In this document: positions 3,756-10,024 of the stretch, piece by piece
Numbering within the stretch: the stretch's first letter is position 1
Layout: each line of letters starts with the position of its first letter
Source of the DNA: Pseudomonadota bacterium
GTDB taxonomy: Bacteria; Pseudomonadota; Gammaproteobacteria; Burkholderiales; Gallionellaceae
Direction of reading: 5' to 3'
Assembly: GCA_021783855.1 (NCBI GenBank)
Contig: JAJXTL010000065.1
Location: 1 to 14,606 of the forward strand
DNA: 14,606 nt
Made by a program: the position numbers and the translations under genes
The notes under the pieces: model-generated
The model's database searches: none
What the model was told of the DNA's origin: nothing
What the model saw: the letters and a program-made list of their open reading frames with translations, nothing else

Positions 3756-6026
3756 ATGAAGCTGAATTTTTTCCCGTGTTGCTCGCTCAAGACGCGGGTA
3801 ACGTTATTCACATTGGCCATTTTTTTGGTCGGCATCTGGGCGATGACAATCTACGCCAGCCGGATGTTGCGCGAAGATATGCAACGCATGTTGGGGGAGC
3901 AGCAGTTTTCGACTGTCTCATATGTTGCAGCCGAGATAAACGAAGATATGGATAACCGGCTGAGGGGGTTGCATGTTGTTGCCACCGAAGTCACACCAGC
4001 CCTGCTGGGCGATGCGTCGGCCTTGCAACTGCTGCTGGGGCGGCATCTGATTCTTCAGAATATGTTTAACGGCGGTACTTTCATCACCCGAACGGATGGC
4101 GCAGTGGTGGCTTCTTTACCGCTTTGGGCAGGAAAGCACAATGTCGGCGATGCGGATAAATATGCCATGCTCGCTGCACTAAAGGAAGGGAGAGCGTCTA
4201 TCGTCCGACCTGCCATGGGAGGGATGCCGCGAACTCCGGTTGTCGTCATGGCGGTATCCATATTCGATGCCCGGGGAGCCGTGATCGGTGCCTTGATGGG
4301 AGTTACCAATTTGAGCCGGCCAAATTTTCTCGACAAGATTGCTGAAAACCAATATGGCAGGATGGGTGGTTATCTGCTCATTGCGCCACAGAGTCGGCTG
4401 ATTATCACCTCAACCGGCAAAAAACATATTCTGGATGCGCTTCCGGTTTACGGTGTCGATACGGTAACCGACCGCTTCATGCGGGGTTATGAGGGATCCG
4501 CAGTTTATGTCAATTCGCAGGGTGCTGAGCAGTTGGCATCGGTCAAATACGTTCCGGTGGCGGGATGGTACGTGAGTGTCGCATTACCGACCAGTGAAGC
4601 CTTTGCACCAATCGGCGGCATACAGCGGCGCATGCTGATTGCCGTGATGTTTTTTACCCTGCTGGCGGGCGCTCTGACCTGGTTGATGTTGCGACGCCAG
4701 CTATCTCCGATGTTTGCTGCAATGAAAACACTGGCCTTCCTGTCGGATACCAGGCAGCCCCTGCAAGCCTTGTCTATTACCCGTCAAGACGAGATTGGCG
4801 ATTTGATCGGCGGATTCAATCGCCTGCTCAATACCCTGGCGCAACGGGAAGCGGCACTGGAAGCGAGCGTACAAGAACAGAACCAGTTATCCGAGAAAAT
4901 CGCTCATTTCGCCGATGAAATGGCAGATCTCTATGAGCATGCACCGTGCGGTTATCATTCGCTTGATCAGGCGGGGTGTTTTCAGCACATCAATGAAACA
5001 GAGCTTAACTGGCTGGGTTATACATGGAGCGAAGTAGTCGGGAAACGCTGGCTTGCCGATTTGTTGAGCAGTACTTCAATTCTGACATACAAACGCGTTT
5101 TTTCGCTTCTCAGGGAAAAGGGGGAGGTGCATGATTTGGAGCTGGAACTGATCCGTAAGAATGGGACGATTTTGCCGGTGATGATTAGCGCGCTGGCCGT
5201 GTATGACAAGGATGGACATTTCATCATGAGCCGTTCCACTGTTTACGATATGACTGAACGGAAAAAAATGGAACAGGAGCGCATTCTTCATCTGAAACGA
5301 CTGGAGGATGCATCGCGTTACCTGGTTGCCGCACAGGAGGAGGCGCGGCGGCGACTTTCCAGTGAACTGCATGATCGCACCAGTCCGAATCTTGCTGCCA
5401 TTAACATCAATCTGGACATCATCGTCACTGAATTACCGCAGCAGCACTCGACAGATTTGGCAGGTCGTCTGGAGGATACGCGTGCGTTGATTATGGACAC
5501 GGCAGCCAGCATTCGCGACATTTGTGCGGATATGCGTCCGCCATTGCTGGATTATGCGGGACTGTCGGCGGCGCTGGAGAGCTATATCCAGCAGTTTACG
5601 CGGCGAACCGGTATTGCAGTTCAATTCGACTGCGTCAATCGTGAAGAGAGATACGCGCCGGAGCTGGAGTCTCTGTTGTTTCGCATTTTCCAGGAAGCGT
5701 TGACCAATTGTGCCAAACACGCTCATGCCACCTCGGTGCGGGTGACGTTCAGCAATGGCGACGCCCCCGTCGCACTGATAATCAGCGACGACGGCGCAGG
5801 ATTCGATCCCGCGTTGCTGGGGAAAAACGGCCCCATCGGTTTGGGAATGTTGAATATGAAGGAAATGGCTGAAGTTGCCGGCGGCAGATTCTCGGTCGAA
5901 TCGGTAATCGGCCAGGGAACACGTGTTGCGGTAGAGTTTCGCAGTGTGGATGAAAGGGAGTCGGTTCTGCGTCTTGGTCGTGACGCGAATCCGGCAATCG
6001 GTAAAGTTTGGCTGGACTTGCCCTGA
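3756..6026 (+). CDS. Membrane sensor histidine kinase (Cache-HAMP-PAS-HisKA_3)
   Basis: This 756-aa NarX/DegS-type kinase senses a signal outside the inner membrane and phosphorylates the regulator encoded downstream. In order it shows TM1 (about 15-35), a periplasmic region of about 255 residues resembling a double Cache sensor, TM2 (293-312), HAMP (about 313-368), a short coiled coil, PAS (about 388-502), a HisKA_3 dimerisation domain and a HATPase domain. The phosphoacceptor is H539 in ELHDRTSPNL. ATP-binding motifs are the N box with N651, DDGAGFD (678-684) and GLGM (695-698). Everything needed for activity is present. The ligand is unknown; Cache domains often bind small organic molecules. 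The start has no strong ribosome site and overlaps a five-codon upstream frame. The response regulator follows after 58 bp, so the two are very likely co-transcribed. Confidence 0.93.
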   Translation: MKLNFFPCCSLKTRVTLFTLAIFLVGIWAMTIYASRMLREDMQRMLGEQQFSTVSYVAAEINEDMDNRLRGLHVVATEVTPALLGDASALQLLLGRHLILQNMFNGGTFITRTDGAVVASLPLWAGKHNVGDADKYAMLAALKEGRASIVRPAMGGMPRTPVVVMAVSIFDARGAVIGALMGVTNLSRPNFLDKIAENQYGRMGGYLLIAPQSRLIITSTGKKHILDALPVYGVDTVTDRFMRGYEGSAVYVNSQGAEQLASVKYVPVAGWYVSVALPTSEAFAPIGGIQRRMLIAVMFFTLLAGALTWLMLRRQLSPMFAAMKTLAFLSDTRQPLQALSITRQDEIGDLIGGFNRLLNTLAQREAALEASVQEQNQLSEKIAHFADEMADLYEHAPCGYHSLDQAGCFQHINETELNWLGYTWSEVVGKRWLADLLSSTSILTYKRVFSLLREKGEVHDLELELIRKNGTILPVMISALAVYDKDGHFIMSRSTVYDMTERKKMEQERILHLKRLEDASRYLVAAQEEARRRLSSELHDRTSPNLAAININLDIIVTELPQQHSTDLAGRLEDTRALIMDTAASIRDICADMRPPLLDYAGLSAALESYIQQFTRRTGIAVQFDCVNREERYAPELESLLFRIFQEALTNCAKHAHATSVRVTFSNGDAPVALIISDDGAGFDPALLGKNGPIGLGMLNMKEMAEVAGGRFSVESVIGQGTRVAVEFRSVDERESVLRLGRDANPAIGKVWLDLP

Positions 6027-6063: not shown

Positions 6064-6084
6064 AGAAAACTTTGAGAGGTGATT

Positions 6085-6711
6085 ATGGGAAATGTTCGCA
6101 TCCTTCTTGTCGATGATCATCAGATGTTCCGCGATGCGTTGCGCAGCTTGCTGGAGAGAGAGACGAACCTGGAAGTCGTCGGCGAAACTGGCGATGCGTT
6201 TGAGGTGGTCGGGCTGGTTGAAAAAACGGCGGCTCAGATTGTCTGTATGGATATCGGCATGCCCGGCATGAATGGTATCGAGATTACGCGGCATCTCATC
6301 GTGGCCTTTCCTTCGGTCAAGGTGGTTGCACTTTCGACACACTCCGATCGGAGATATGTAACGGATATGATGAGTGCGGGCGCCGATGCTTATATCACCA
6401 AGGCCGAAGCCGCCGGTGAGTTGTTGCGTGCGATCAGCGCGGTGTTGGAAAATCGCAAATACTTGTGCCCCGACGTGTCAAAAATCATGATTCAGCATGC
6501 CGCTCCTCCCGCCAGACTCGGCAACCGGGAACGTCAGGTGCTGCAATTGGTGGCTGAAGGTCTTACCTCTGCGATGGTTGCAGACAGGCTGAATATCTCC
6601 CCCTCCACAGTCGATGTGCACAGACGCAACATCATGAGCAAACTCAACTTGCATAATGTCGCTGAGCTCACCCGCTACGCAATTACCGGCGAACTTATCA
6701 GCCGTAAATAA
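6085..6711 (+). CDS. NarL/FixJ-family response regulator
   Basis: This 208-aa DNA-binding regulator is the likely partner of the upstream kinase. The receiver domain has the acidic pair D10-D11, phosphoacceptor D56 in CMDIGMPGMNG and conserved K106 in YITKAE. A LuxR-type helix-turn-helix occupies about 145-204, from LGNRERQVLQLVAEGLTS to STVDVHRRNIMSKL. Length is normal for the family. I place the start at ATG 6085 because GAGAGG (6074-6079) lies five bases upstream; a GTG at 6079 would overlap that site. Phosphorylation should promote dimerisation and binding upstream of target genes. The targets are not shown by sequence; the FimV-like gene just downstream is a candidate by position only. 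Confidence 0.95.
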   Translation: MGNVRILLVDDHQMFRDALRSLLERETNLEVVGETGDAFEVVGLVEKTAAQIVCMDIGMPGMNGIEITRHLIVAFPSVKVVALSTHSDRRYVTDMMSAGADAYITKAEAAGELLRAISAVLENRKYLCPDVSKIMIQHAAPPARLGNRERQVLQLVAEGLTSAMVADRLNISPSTVDVHRRNIMSKLNLHNVAELTRYAITGELISRK

Positions 6712-6739
6712 TCGTTCAGCAGCTATTTCAGTACCGATG

Positions 6740-6769
6740 GAAAAAATACCCTGTTCAAGGTATTTTTTC
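6740..6769 (+). terminator. Intrinsic terminator after two-component operon
   Basis: GAAAAAATACC and GGTATTTTTTC form an 11-bp perfect stem around an 8-base loop. The T run is inside the 3' arm, as in bidirectional terminators with an A tract on the other side. The stem is AT-rich and thus weaker than typical. It starts 28 bases after the regulator's stop codon. Confidence 0.7.
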
Positions 6770-6914
6770 AAATTATCTTCCTGTTTAACATCCGTGTAAC
6801 AGGATCATTGTCGGGAATTTCTGTTTTGCTCGCCTGCCGGTGTAATCCACAGGGGGCGTTGTAATGACAGTGACTTTCTGGCGCAGCAGCCTTTTATAAA
6901 CCAGGGTATATGCC

Positions 6915-7010
6915 ATGCCATCAATCAAATCAGTTCTGGATGTATCGTCCGTCGAGCGCGTCACTTACGTCGGATGCGGATGCTATCCTGAATTTTCATA
7001 CGCGATATGA
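6915..7010 (+). CDS. Possible leader ORF, 31 aa
   Basis: An open frame of 31 codons begins at ATG 6915 with AGGG eight bases upstream and ends in an ATGA overlap with the start of the FimV-like gene, which has no ribosome site of its own. The product (C-terminal part VGCGCYPEFSYAI) matches nothing I know. It could be a translational-coupling leader, but a frame this short can arise by chance. Confidence 0.22.
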   Translation: MPSIKSVLDVSSVERVTYVGCGCYPEFSYAI

Positions 7011-8524
7011 CCGACGAGTTGCAACCGCCTGAATGGAGTAGTTTGACGCGCAGCTTTTTGTCGCGTGCGCTGTCCGCGTTGGCGTTGGTGACCTCCGGTG
7101 CCTATGCGATGGTGCCGCCCGTCGATGTGCCCGGTCGAATCGATGCTGCCGGCGAAGAGCGACAGGCAGCGCGGCTTGCGCAAGAATTAAACGAATTAAA
7201 TATGCAAATCAGTCAGATGCAGGCGTCGGTCAAAAGCTTGCAGGTCAGTATGAGGAAAAGGTCAGCGGTTGATGGTTATATGGCCGCAGGGTCGCATGTT
7301 GCCGGTGAGTTGCCGGCGGCAGGCGGGCAGCGCAGTGGCTCAGTCATGCTGGCTGATGCAGCAGCAGTGGATTCGGTCAGTTGGGCCGCGCTGTTGCAGC
7401 GCGATTATAAAAAAATATCGATATTTTTGCTGTTGCTGCTGGCGGGCGGGACAATTTCAGGGTATCGCAAATACGGGGCGGCGTTCAAGCGCAGTATTTT
7501 TGCCCAAACGTATGCTGAGGGTGCCGGTTCTGCACCGGAACGACTCCCGGCAAGCGAGATCGGTGAACGATCGTTGAAGACTCCGGCCATCGTGGAAAGC
7601 GAATTCGCCATGGGGAAATCAGGCAAGGTGATTCCGCTGAGTTCGGCGTCTGCCGGCTCACCCCTGCCTGTTCGACAAATCCGTTATATCGCTGAGCTGG
7701 CAAAGATCGATGCAATGATCGAGGAAGCCGAGTTATATGCAATGCATGGACGCTGGGATAATGCCATTGAGATATTGAACAATATCATCCTGGAATTTCC
7801 GGAGAAAATCGAGGCGTGGTTGTTGCTGTTATCCATTTTTCGCAACAAGGCGAGTGCACGGCAGTTTGAATTGATAGCCAGGACTTTTTTACGCACCATG
7901 GGCAGCAACGATACCTGGAAAGAGATTCAGCAAGCCGGGCGGAGCATAGATCCCGGAAATCGGCTGTATTTCTACCCCGATTATGCGCGAACAGCAAATG
8001 CCGAACATCGCATCAAACCGAACAAACGGCGTTTGCTGGGTCATATTTTGATTGATATGAAGGCGATTTCGTCGAACGACCTGGATGCCACCCTGGCGAA
8101 TTTTGATCAGCTGCGAGACGGTCGATTGGGTGGCTATCTGATTACATGCGGATTGATTAAGCGGATTCAGTTGGATAATGCCCTGCGACAGCAGGAAAGT
8201 GAGTCATCATTTTCTCAATTCAGTTATGCAACGTCGTTCGCCAATCCGGTCAAGGCGGGTTCGATAAGCGATGCGTTGATCCAAATGGACTTGGTGACCG
8301 AACCGGAGCTGGATCATGTTCTGGCCGATTTTGATTCGAGGTGCCATGGTCGCTGCGGAAATTACCTTGTGACACGCGGGCTCATCACACAAAAACAGCT
8401 TCACGCAGCGTTGTTGCAGCAGCTAAGCGGTGTGCAGGCTGCCGAAATTGTTGCGCCGGATGAAGCGTTCAGGCGACGTGTTGTCATGAATAAAGCCGGC
8501 CTCAAGGTTTTGCGTTCAGCTTGA
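7007..8524 (+). CDS. FimV-like membrane protein with MshEN-type repeats
   Basis: This 505-aa protein has an N-terminal signal-like segment (about 16-34, ending AYA), a charged coiled coil (51-84), a membrane segment (about 136-153) and a long, presumably cytoplasmic C-terminal part. Residues about 230-311 resemble the TPR-like cytoplasmic region of FimV (IDAMIEEAELYAMHGRWDNA, then LEFPEKIEAWLLLLSIF), which scaffolds type IV pilus and polar assemblies. Residues 343-472 hold four copies of a 24-residue motif with identical spacing inside each pair: 343-366, 373-396, 419-442 and 449-472. Copies 2 and 4 fit the MshEN c-di-GMP-binding pattern RLGxxxxxxGxxxxxxLxxxLxxQ almost exactly (copy 4 has RCG); copies 1 and 3 are degenerate. 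MshEN is normally found on type II secretion and pilus ATPases, none of which is encoded here. ATG 7007 has no ribosome site. Second-messenger-controlled scaffolding at the membrane is an inference. Confidence 0.75.
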   Translation: MTDELQPPEWSSLTRSFLSRALSALALVTSGAYAMVPPVDVPGRIDAAGEERQAARLAQELNELNMQISQMQASVKSLQVSMRKRSAVDGYMAAGSHVAGELPAAGGQRSGSVMLADAAAVDSVSWAALLQRDYKKISIFLLLLLAGGTISGYRKYGAAFKRSIFAQTYAEGAGSAPERLPASEIGERSLKTPAIVESEFAMGKSGKVIPLSSASAGSPLPVRQIRYIAELAKIDAMIEEAELYAMHGRWDNAIEILNNIILEFPEKIEAWLLLLSIFRNKASARQFELIARTFLRTMGSNDTWKEIQQAGRSIDPGNRLYFYPDYARTANAEHRIKPNKRRLLGHILIDMKAISSNDLDATLANFDQLRDGRLGGYLITCGLIKRIQLDNALRQQESESSFSQFSYATSFANPVKAGSISDALIQMDLVTEPELDHVLADFDSRCHGRCGNYLVTRGLITQKQLHAALLQQLSGVQAAEIVAPDEAFRRRVVMNKAGLKVLRSA

Positions 8525-8630: not shown

Positions 8631-9035
8631 TTGAATACCATAGACACCACCGAGTTGTTTTCGCAGTATCCACATATTGCGAAAAAAATCACCCATTCAT
8701 GGGGGCATCCGGAATGCCGGGCGTTGCTGGTGTCTCTCATCAGTGATTCCAGGGGCGGCGTCAGGGCGGGATTTTCATCCCGGAATGCAAAAACGTTATT
8801 TGCACTGCTGACCAGGCACGATGCCTTGTATCCCCAGTTTGAAAAGCCGGCTGATGTTTGGTCGGCAGAGCCTTCGGGCACGGATGGCACCGTAAACACT
8901 CATGCAATGCCTAAAAATGTTGGCAGACATGCCGAAAGCCGCCACGCTGACTGGAGGCTTGTTAAATATGTAGTTCCATTGTTTGCCCTGATTTTATTCG
9001 CATTGGTATTCAGGGCGTTCAGGGTATTTTTTTAA
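8631..9035 (+). CDS. Small tail-anchored protein of unknown function
   Basis: This 134-aa protein begins with a soluble region (LFSQYPHIAKKITHSWGHPE, then a repeat-like LFALLTRHD) that resembles a small uncharacterised domain often seen in betaproteobacteria. A variable linker follows (about 75-108), and one hydrophobic segment (112-131) ends just before the C-terminus. This places the N-terminal domain in the cytoplasm with a tail anchor in the inner membrane. The start is TTG, supported by a strong ribosome site. It lies 106 bp after the FimV-like gene and 59 bp before the HD-domain gene on the same strand. I cannot assign a function; partnership with either neighbour is a guess. Confidence 0.75.
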   Translation: MNTIDTTELFSQYPHIAKKITHSWGHPECRALLVSLISDSRGGVRAGFSSRNAKTLFALLTRHDALYPQFEKPADVWSAEPSGTDGTVNTHAMPKNVGRHAESRHADWRLVKYVVPLFALILFALVFRAFRVFF

Positions 9036-9094: not shown

Positions 9095-10024
9095 ATGAAA
9101 ATTACCCCTGCACCTGTCGAGATCAACAGTCTTTTTGCCAATAATAATCCGGAAGAGGTTTGGAAAAAGGCGGAGGAGATTGTCGGGCATATCAGCCACA
9201 CGCACGATAACAGTCTCGTAAGAAGCACCTTTGACGATGTGGTACGCTTGTTTCGCGGAAAATATCCCGGCTTCTGTCCGGTCGGTACGCTGTATCATGA
9301 TTTGCAACATACGCTGGATGTCTTTTTATGTTCGGTCAGGCTGATGCATGGCGTGCATCTTTCAGGATGCAGACTGACTGATGACGAAATGTCGATGATC
9401 ATGATGGCCGCGCTGATGCACGATACCGGCTATGCGCAACTTATCGGAGAAAATTACGGCACGGGCGCGCAACACACTCAGACGCATGTCAACCGCAGTG
9501 TATGTTTCATGCAGCGCTACCTCGTTGATAGAAATTTCCCAAAGGCATGGGCTGCGCCGCTCGAGTCGATAATTTTTTGCACTAATCCGGCACTGAATGT
9601 ATCTGATATCGTGTTCCCTGACGAGCGCTCACGCATGCTGGGGGAGATGCTCGGCACAGCCGATCTGACCGGGCAGATGGCGGACCGAACCTATCTGGAA
9701 AAATTGTTGTTGCTGTTTCTGGAATTTGAGGAAGCGCGTTTTGGCAACTACCAGCATATTCACGACCTGTTGCGTAATACCCAGGTGTTTTACGAGGCAA
9801 GCCTGCTGCGACTGCGCGAACAGTTCGGCGGTATCAATGGCAAACTCTCGTTTCATTTCAAAAACTGGTATGGCGTCGATAAAAACTACTACCTGGAATC
9901 CATCGAGAAAAACATCGCCTACCTGGCCAGGATTACGGCACTGGACGATGCAAAGCATTTTGCCATGCTCAAGCGCGGCGGGATCGTGGAAAAGCTGAGA
10001 CTCTGCCAGGTTAAGGGTGCGTAA
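9095..10024 (+). CDS. HD-domain phosphohydrolase, class I PDE-like
   Basis: This 309-aa soluble protein has an HD metal-hydrolase core: YHDLQHTLDV (H68, D69, H72), ALMHDTGYA (H109, D110) and TADL (D190). The order and spacing match class I cyclic-nucleotide phosphodiesterases, in which the first His of HNxxH is the catalytic acid and the second His, the HD pair and a distal Asp hold the metals. By that comparison H68 would be the acid and H72, H109, D110 and D190 the ligands. It lacks the GYP motif of c-di-GMP-specific HD-GYP enzymes, so the substrate may be cAMP, cGMP or another nucleotide. No sensor domain, signal peptide or membrane segment is seen. There is no clear ribosome site before ATG 9095. 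Generic HD nucleotide hydrolase is the main alternative. Confidence 0.8.
   Translation: MKITPAPVEINSLFANNNPEEVWKKAEEIVGHISHTHDNSLVRSTFDDVVRLFRGKYPGFCPVGTLYHDLQHTLDVFLCSVRLMHGVHLSGCRLTDDEMSMIMMAALMHDTGYAQLIGENYGTGAQHTQTHVNRSVCFMQRYLVDRNFPKAWAAPLESIIFCTNPALNVSDIVFPDERSRMLGEMLGTADLTGQMADRTYLEKLLLLFLEFEEARFGNYQHIHDLLRNTQVFYEASLLRLREQFGGINGKLSFHFKNWYGVDKNYYLESIEKNIAYLARITALDDAKHFAMLKRGGIVEKLRLCQVKGA

Follow-up and report, generated by a model that had tools for sequence, protein, structure and literature searches.

Domains of the MshEN type, as in MshE and the GSPII-B domain of T. thermophilus PilF, bind cyclic di-GMP (c-di-GMP) through two motifs of 24 residues, while landmark proteins such as FimV and HubP place c-di-GMP enzymes at the cell pole (PMC9061725, PMC10212136). 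The window analysed here, a stretch of 14,606 nucleotides (contig JAJXTL010000065.1 of assembly GCA_021783855.1), encodes a 505-residue protein (7007..8524, + strand; defined by its open frame, its homologues and the NCBIfam model NF053729) in which a FimV-derived membrane scaffold ends in two MshEN-type domains. We consider it most probable, at roughly 60%, that this protein is a c-di-GMP-responsive FimV paralogue, its first domain (A) binding the messenger and its second (B) serving for docking or relay, which would organise pili or attachment. Computation gave the identity of the domains, their predicted fold, the origin from FimV, the conservation and the gene neighbourhoods, and from these we infer ligand binding, topology, partners and output.

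Stacking on each guanine in MshE involves leucine 2 of one motif together with leucines 17 and 21 of its partner, and positions 3 and 4 make backbone contacts; binding was abolished when motif 1 lost Gly3, and earlier changes of Arg1 or Gln24 weakened it by at most about fivefold (PMC5013675). PilF GSPII-B has Lys and Leu in place of the two Arg1 residues and a higher affinity, an extended consensus (R/K/L)LG was proposed from it, and Gln24-to-Glu changes served to impair its binding (PMC11731258). E. coli NfrB, a c-di-GMP-activated glycosyltransferase, binds with a dissociation constant of 1 uM, its MshEN domain being called fully conserved (PMC8669469); positions 1, 10 and 24 of its motif 1 are occupied by P, Q and R. 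An earlier annotation of this DNA, made from its letters (the original prediction), associated MshEN with secretion and pilus ATPases; the domain was already known outside secretion ATPases, in company with REC, HD-GYP, CheA, CheX, cyclase and kinase domains (PMC5013675). Binding can also be lost from the fold, as in the MshEN domain of XpsE (PMC5013675), and PilF GSPII-A does not bind c-di-GMP (PMC11731258). FimV and HubP recruit separate enzymes and receptors, namely DgcP, PdeB and FlgZ (PMC10212136, PMC12564702), and MshEN and FimV are named separately in the available text of PMC9061725, PMC10212136, PMC12564702 and PMC12265715. No fusion of FimV with MshEN was found among titles and abstracts, though the architecture tables supplementing PMC5013675 might still include one.

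The window protein carries four motifs in two pairs, domain A (residues 342-400; 8030..8206, + strand) comprising motif 1 (8033-8104) and motif 2 (8123-8194), and domain B (residues 418-474; 8258..8428, + strand) comprising motif 3 (8261-8332) and motif 4 (8351-8422). With MshE and PilF GSPII-B it shares the two 24-residue motifs in a four-helix domain and, in domain A, the hydrophobic triads, Gly3 and the Gln24 of motif 2; it differs from both in a six-residue spacer, in Phe-Asp at positions 24-25 of motif 1, in having tandem domains of which the second has an altered site, and in lacking an ATPase. NfrB is likewise a membrane protein with MshEN at its C-terminus, and its motif 1 departs at the same positions 1, 10 and 24, but its MshEN domain is single, the motifs there are four residues apart, and a glycosyltransferase domain accompanies it. 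FimV and HubP resemble the window protein in the single membrane helix, the homologous TPR region and, for several relatives, FimV_N, whereas the window protein has MshEN domains, and no LysM, C-terminal FimV domain or FimV_N was found in it.

On the reading preferred here, two tandem MshEN N-terminal-type domains would replace the C-terminal tail of FimV in a paralogue anchored by one inner-membrane helix, with a periplasmic coiled coil and a cytoplasmic portion made up of the TPR-type region and the MshEN domains. Domain A would most likely bind one c-di-GMP between its two motifs and so change the scaffold's hold on its partners, while domain B, with its altered site, would most likely offer a docking or relay surface. 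Relatives' neighbourhoods suggest that the partners may be MSHA- or type II-like pilus ATPases, HDOD proteins or the product of the adjacent gene g134, so that the protein would organise pili or surface attachment from a fixed place in the membrane and in response to c-di-GMP. If this is true, the scaffold itself may respond to the messenger that decides between swimming and sticking, with receptor and scaffold in one chain; a landmark that is itself a c-di-GMP sensor is undescribed in the portions of the literature consulted, and with the receptor-type domain built into a FimV paralogue, landmark sensing becomes directly testable. A bolder version, put forward tentatively, has a landmark-type scaffold itself reading c-di-GMP via domain A, domain B as a conserved docking site, and g134 as an interface common to scaffold and ATPase.

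Binding-site residues in the two pairs

Conservation was counted in the readable rows of a 35-row alignment (for the stacking positions of pair A five rows are gapped, leaving 30) and in a second set of 20 further relatives with a single or first pair, taken from loci with wider flanks. The six guanine-stacking positions of pair A are all hydrophobic in 29 of the 30 rows, and all leucine in 21; they are hydrophobic in every one of the 20 single or first pairs as well. Gly3 is present in motif 1 in 32/33 rows and in motif 2 in 31/31, and motif 2 also keeps Gln24 (31/33) and Arg1 (26/31). At position 10, motif 1 has Q, N or K in 30/33 rows of the alignment and Gly in 18/20 single or first pairs. 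Motif 1 begins LLG, which fits the extended (R/K/L)LG consensus, and because NfrB departs from the pattern likewise, the apparent degeneracy of this motif is little evidence against binding. With the hydrophobic triads, Gly3 and the Gln24 of motif 2 kept, and with NfrB as a precedent, pair A looks able to bind, and on its residues c-di-GMP is a likely ligand.

Several observations pull the other way. Position 24 of motif 1 is Phe or Tyr, not Gln, in 31/31 readable rows and Phe in 20/20 single or first pairs, and the spacer has six residues rather than five; the combination of Gln24 in both motifs with a five-residue spacer is thus absent, motifs 1 and 3 having Phe24. All six leucines occur in only 1/20 of the single- or first-pair relatives, which also have Lys or Arg at position 10 of motif 2 in 16/20 and Phe at position 2 of motif 2 in 15/20. 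By mean pairwise identity over 28 members, pair B (0.72) and the TPR region (0.71) exceed pair A (0.62), and the relatives P0032 and P0034 keep pair B without an intact pair A. The structures matched by the predicted fold include XpsE, an MshEN domain without binding. All four single- or first-pair relatives scanned fall below the NF053729 cut-off (23.2-35.6 bits), including the relative from the pilus cluster L081/L086 discussed below, whose match is weak at 23.2 bits; and 14 of the 26 loci read, the window's own among them, have no HDOD, GGDEF/EAL or MshEN-ATPase neighbour.

The alternative that survives these data best supposes that the MshEN fold was kept and c-di-GMP binding lost, so that both domains would be protein-protein modules through which the scaffold docks onto ATPases of pili or secretion and onto proteins related to them. 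It gains from the aromatic residue that holds position 24 of both first motifs in every readable row, from pair B, where conservation is highest alongside the TPR region although 31/32 rows lack the full stacking set, and from XpsE (PMC5013675) and PilF GSPII-A (PMC11731258) as non-binding precedents. Docking would not obviously need the stacking residues, both Gly3 and the motif 2 Gln24 of pair A, however, and these are nearly invariant; we regard loss of binding from both domains as rather unlikely.

Pair B has the full hydrophobic stacking set in a single row of the 32 readable. Position 2 of its motif 4 is Cys in 30/32 rows; in motif 3 Gly3 is mostly lost, Ser standing there in 21/32, with Ile at position 2 in 32/32 and Asp at position 4 in 31/32. 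Motif 4 otherwise retains Gly3 (31/32) and Gln24 (32/33), its position 1 being His in 25/32 rows and Arg in the window protein. Conserved as it is without the stacking set, pair B appears to have a conserved job, and judging from its residues this is probably other than canonical c-di-GMP binding. The original prediction, which had treated the pairs as equivalent and each as a domain with half of its ligand site altered, is thus right only in part; equivalence fails with the Cys of motif 4 and the Gly3 mostly missing from motif 3. Its expectation that the Arg, Gly and Gln positions would be kept in homologues held for Gly3 and Gln24 of both second motifs and for Arg1 of motif 2, and failed at the His-bearing position 1 of motif 4.

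That the changes in pair B are not random decay, Cys2 of motif 4 and Ile2 and Asp4 of motif 3 being so constant, would also suit an arrangement in which domain A binds c-di-GMP and the altered, conserved site of domain B takes up something else, for instance a different nucleotide. Nothing points to such a ligand, however, and a protein contact explains the conservation equally, which makes a second ligand improbable. Relatives with one pair and with two amount to a natural experiment on these domains; in the branch with two pairs, the second has given up the canonical site and is nevertheless the better conserved.

Domain identity and the FimV-derived scaffold

The assignment of the motif region to the MshEN type is firm. 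Motifs 1-4 occupy residues 343-366, 373-396, 419-442 and 449-472, 24 residues each, with a gap of six residues within both pairs, exactly at the coordinates of the four units first proposed. Scored as matches to the MshEN consensus over 11 positions, they reach 8, 11, 6 and 10, in agreement with the claim that the second motif of each pair fits the pattern (11/11 and 10/11). The highest window among 5000 shuffles of the protein scored 9, so that the scores of motifs 2 and 4 are reached in 0/5000; the 8 of motif 1 is equalled in 32/5000, and motif 3, taken by itself, is at chance level. The register of motif 3 follows from the equal spacing, the profile match between the pairs and the predicted helices. 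The profiles of pairs A and B align end to end (hhalign probability 99.5, expectation value (E) 2.8e-23, as a single comparison), which supports motifs 1 and 3, weak singly, in their register.

NF053729 ("cyclic di-GMP-binding domain-containing protein, MshE-related") matches the window protein at 56.8 bits (cut-off 38, E 1.4e-15) and 33/35 alignment rows, the window protein among them, at E <= 0.001; the second-best NCBIfam match is the NfrB model, whose 41.6 bits lie far below its whole-protein cut-off. The Pfam MshEN model PF05157 gave no match in the window protein at E <= 5. In the MshEN ATPase of locus L081 this model aligns at residues 61-147 and the two motifs lie at 8-60, so it does not cover the motif region; the profile search proposed as a check on the MshEN assignment gave a match with NF053729 and none with Pfam. 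AlphaFold predicts two four-helix domains in the window protein, and predicted domain A superposes on c-di-GMP-bound MshE at 1.7 A over 60 residues; the units do make two MshEN-type domains, and for domain A the structural match looked for was found. MshEN matches of the fold search span domain A, not domain B, which has a profile match to MshE and a predicted local distance difference test (pLDDT) of 93-96 over residues 421-470. No C-terminal MshEN subdomain and no ATPase were seen in the window protein. That the motifs arose by coincidence within a helical FimV tail, for which the chance-level score of motif 3 and the missing Pfam MshEN match speak, is contradicted by the NF053729 matches, the MshE fold match of domain A and the shuffle test, and is scarcely credible.

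The scaffold, originally described as FimV-like, is FimV-derived by homology of sequence. The 505-residue protein has 34 homologues at E <= 0.01; FimV_N occurs in 5/9 relatives scanned (the carriers having 608-751 residues), and the window protein itself has no Pfam match to it. Pfam LysM matched neither the window protein nor any of the nine. The family profile matches P0037 and P0038, FimV-type proteins, over the TPR region, and FimV-type frames in 123/200 genomes of the order (E <= 1e-10), mostly over columns ~250-375. No FimV model is among the seven NCBIfam families matched by the 35 rows; NCBIfam presumably includes such models. P. putida and P. aeruginosa FimV have cytoplasmic TPR besides the C-terminal FimV domain, and FimV_N is present in Pseudomonas FimV and absent in HubP (PMC12918733). 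In each of nine genomes with a FimV-MshEN locus, FimV_N also occurs in a frame separate from that gene, in six of them one of 880-941 residues, so that the FimV-MshEN protein looks like a paralogue and not the sole FimV. In two genomes adjoining FimV_N matches fall in separate frames of 168-169 and 490-501 residues (G003:C17:18942-19717 and G005:C3:18462-19237).

From the N-terminus, the protein begins with a stretch that resembles a signal peptide by eye (residues 13-35; 7043..7111, + strand), followed by a predicted long helix, probably a coiled coil (residues 47-86; 7145..7264, + strand; pLDDT 86-90 over 51-80), which by analogy with FimV is expected on the periplasmic side. A hydrophobic stretch within a predicted helix at 134-164 marks the membrane helix (residues ~136-152; 7412..7462, + strand). 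The helical TPR-type region, homologous to the cytoplasmic TPR of FimV (residues 222-333; 7670..8005, + strand), is supported by the profile, by a pLDDT of 81-95 across residues 231-320 and by TPR_14, whose 17.9 bits lie below its cut-off of 23.5. Everything past domain B, residues 476-505, is predicted to be disordered.

Distribution and gene neighbourhoods

The fusion, counted where a match at E <= 1e-20 spans the TPR region and the MshEN columns (in G005, TPR and pair B alone), is present in 22/158 genomes of one family, apparently Gallionellaceae, to which G009 with its Ferriphaselus locus L009 belongs. Among the matches listed for 200 genomes drawn evenly from the order, only those of G005 and G009 show it. 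Among the 20 further relatives, eleven have one pair, and nine have a second pair by profile, mostly shorter or weaker. The MshE-related c-di-GMP model also matches two or three times in tandem in frames of about 798-807 residues, recorded at G005:C3:33241-33576, G003:C17:33648-33983, G002:C20:8920-9255 and G004:C11:9131-9382.

For neighbours, 26 loci with the window among them were read, the BLAST search relying on one GGDEF-EAL protein, one HDOD protein, one ATPase and the window's genes; HDOD, GGDEF/EAL or MshEN-ATPase genes were found in 12/26, in a search that may miss divergent genes and with L068, L082 and L083 incomplete on one side. HDOD genes adjoin in nine loci (L001, L002, L003, L005, L069, L072, L074, L078, L081). 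At 9-17 HDOD matches per genome (eight genomes) we estimate chance adjacency at ~1% per locus, the nine loci being related and representing perhaps two or three independent cases. GGDEF or EAL genes lie at most two genes away in five loci (L003, L069 and L078 by Pfam; L001 and L005 by BLAST to L003), and MshEN/T2SSE ATPases equally close in four (L006, L007 with a 304-residue piece, L071, L081). In L081/L086 (G351:C46) the FimV-MshEN gene stands between a T2SSF gene and two HDOD genes in an MSHA-like pilus cluster. Also encoded there are the MshEN ATPase, a pair of prepilins, one DUF6701 protein and another that is weakly PilM-like; the secretin of the cluster fits MshL best (246.5 bits, marginally below the cut-off of 250.2). 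As to co-occurrence with pilus genes, a pilus cluster was thus seen once and an MshEN/T2SSE ATPase in 4/26 loci, and neither among the window's own neighbours.

Downstream of the FimV-MshEN gene lies g134 (8631..9035, + strand; 134 residues with a C-terminal hydrophobic stretch), which comes next in the window, L001, L002, L003 and L005; in L004 the two are fused, so that the linkage is found in 6/6 loci of the window's branch with flanks available; the L001 copy is a 67-residue frame with 36 residues matched. Pfam gave no match for g134, whose N-terminal part is similar to the beginning of the L006, L007 and L071 MshEN ATPases (hhalign probability 95, E 3.8e-8, as a single comparison). Two genes past the scaffold is an HD-domain-like protein of 309 residues (9095..10024, + strand), whose matches below cut-off include HD and PDEase_I; PF01966 gives 13.9 bits (cut-off 22) and NF045583 52.6 bits (cut-off 400). 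Upstream, the window encodes a histidine kinase (3756-6026, + strand) and a LuxR-type response regulator (6079-6711, + strand). A response-regulator gene directly upstream of the FimV-MshEN gene is also seen in L004, where it is of the OmpR type (6676-7362). At 227-2101 the window has a 624-residue frame with a pyruvate-kinase barrel, its best stretch at residues 366-581 and a long N-terminal part before it.
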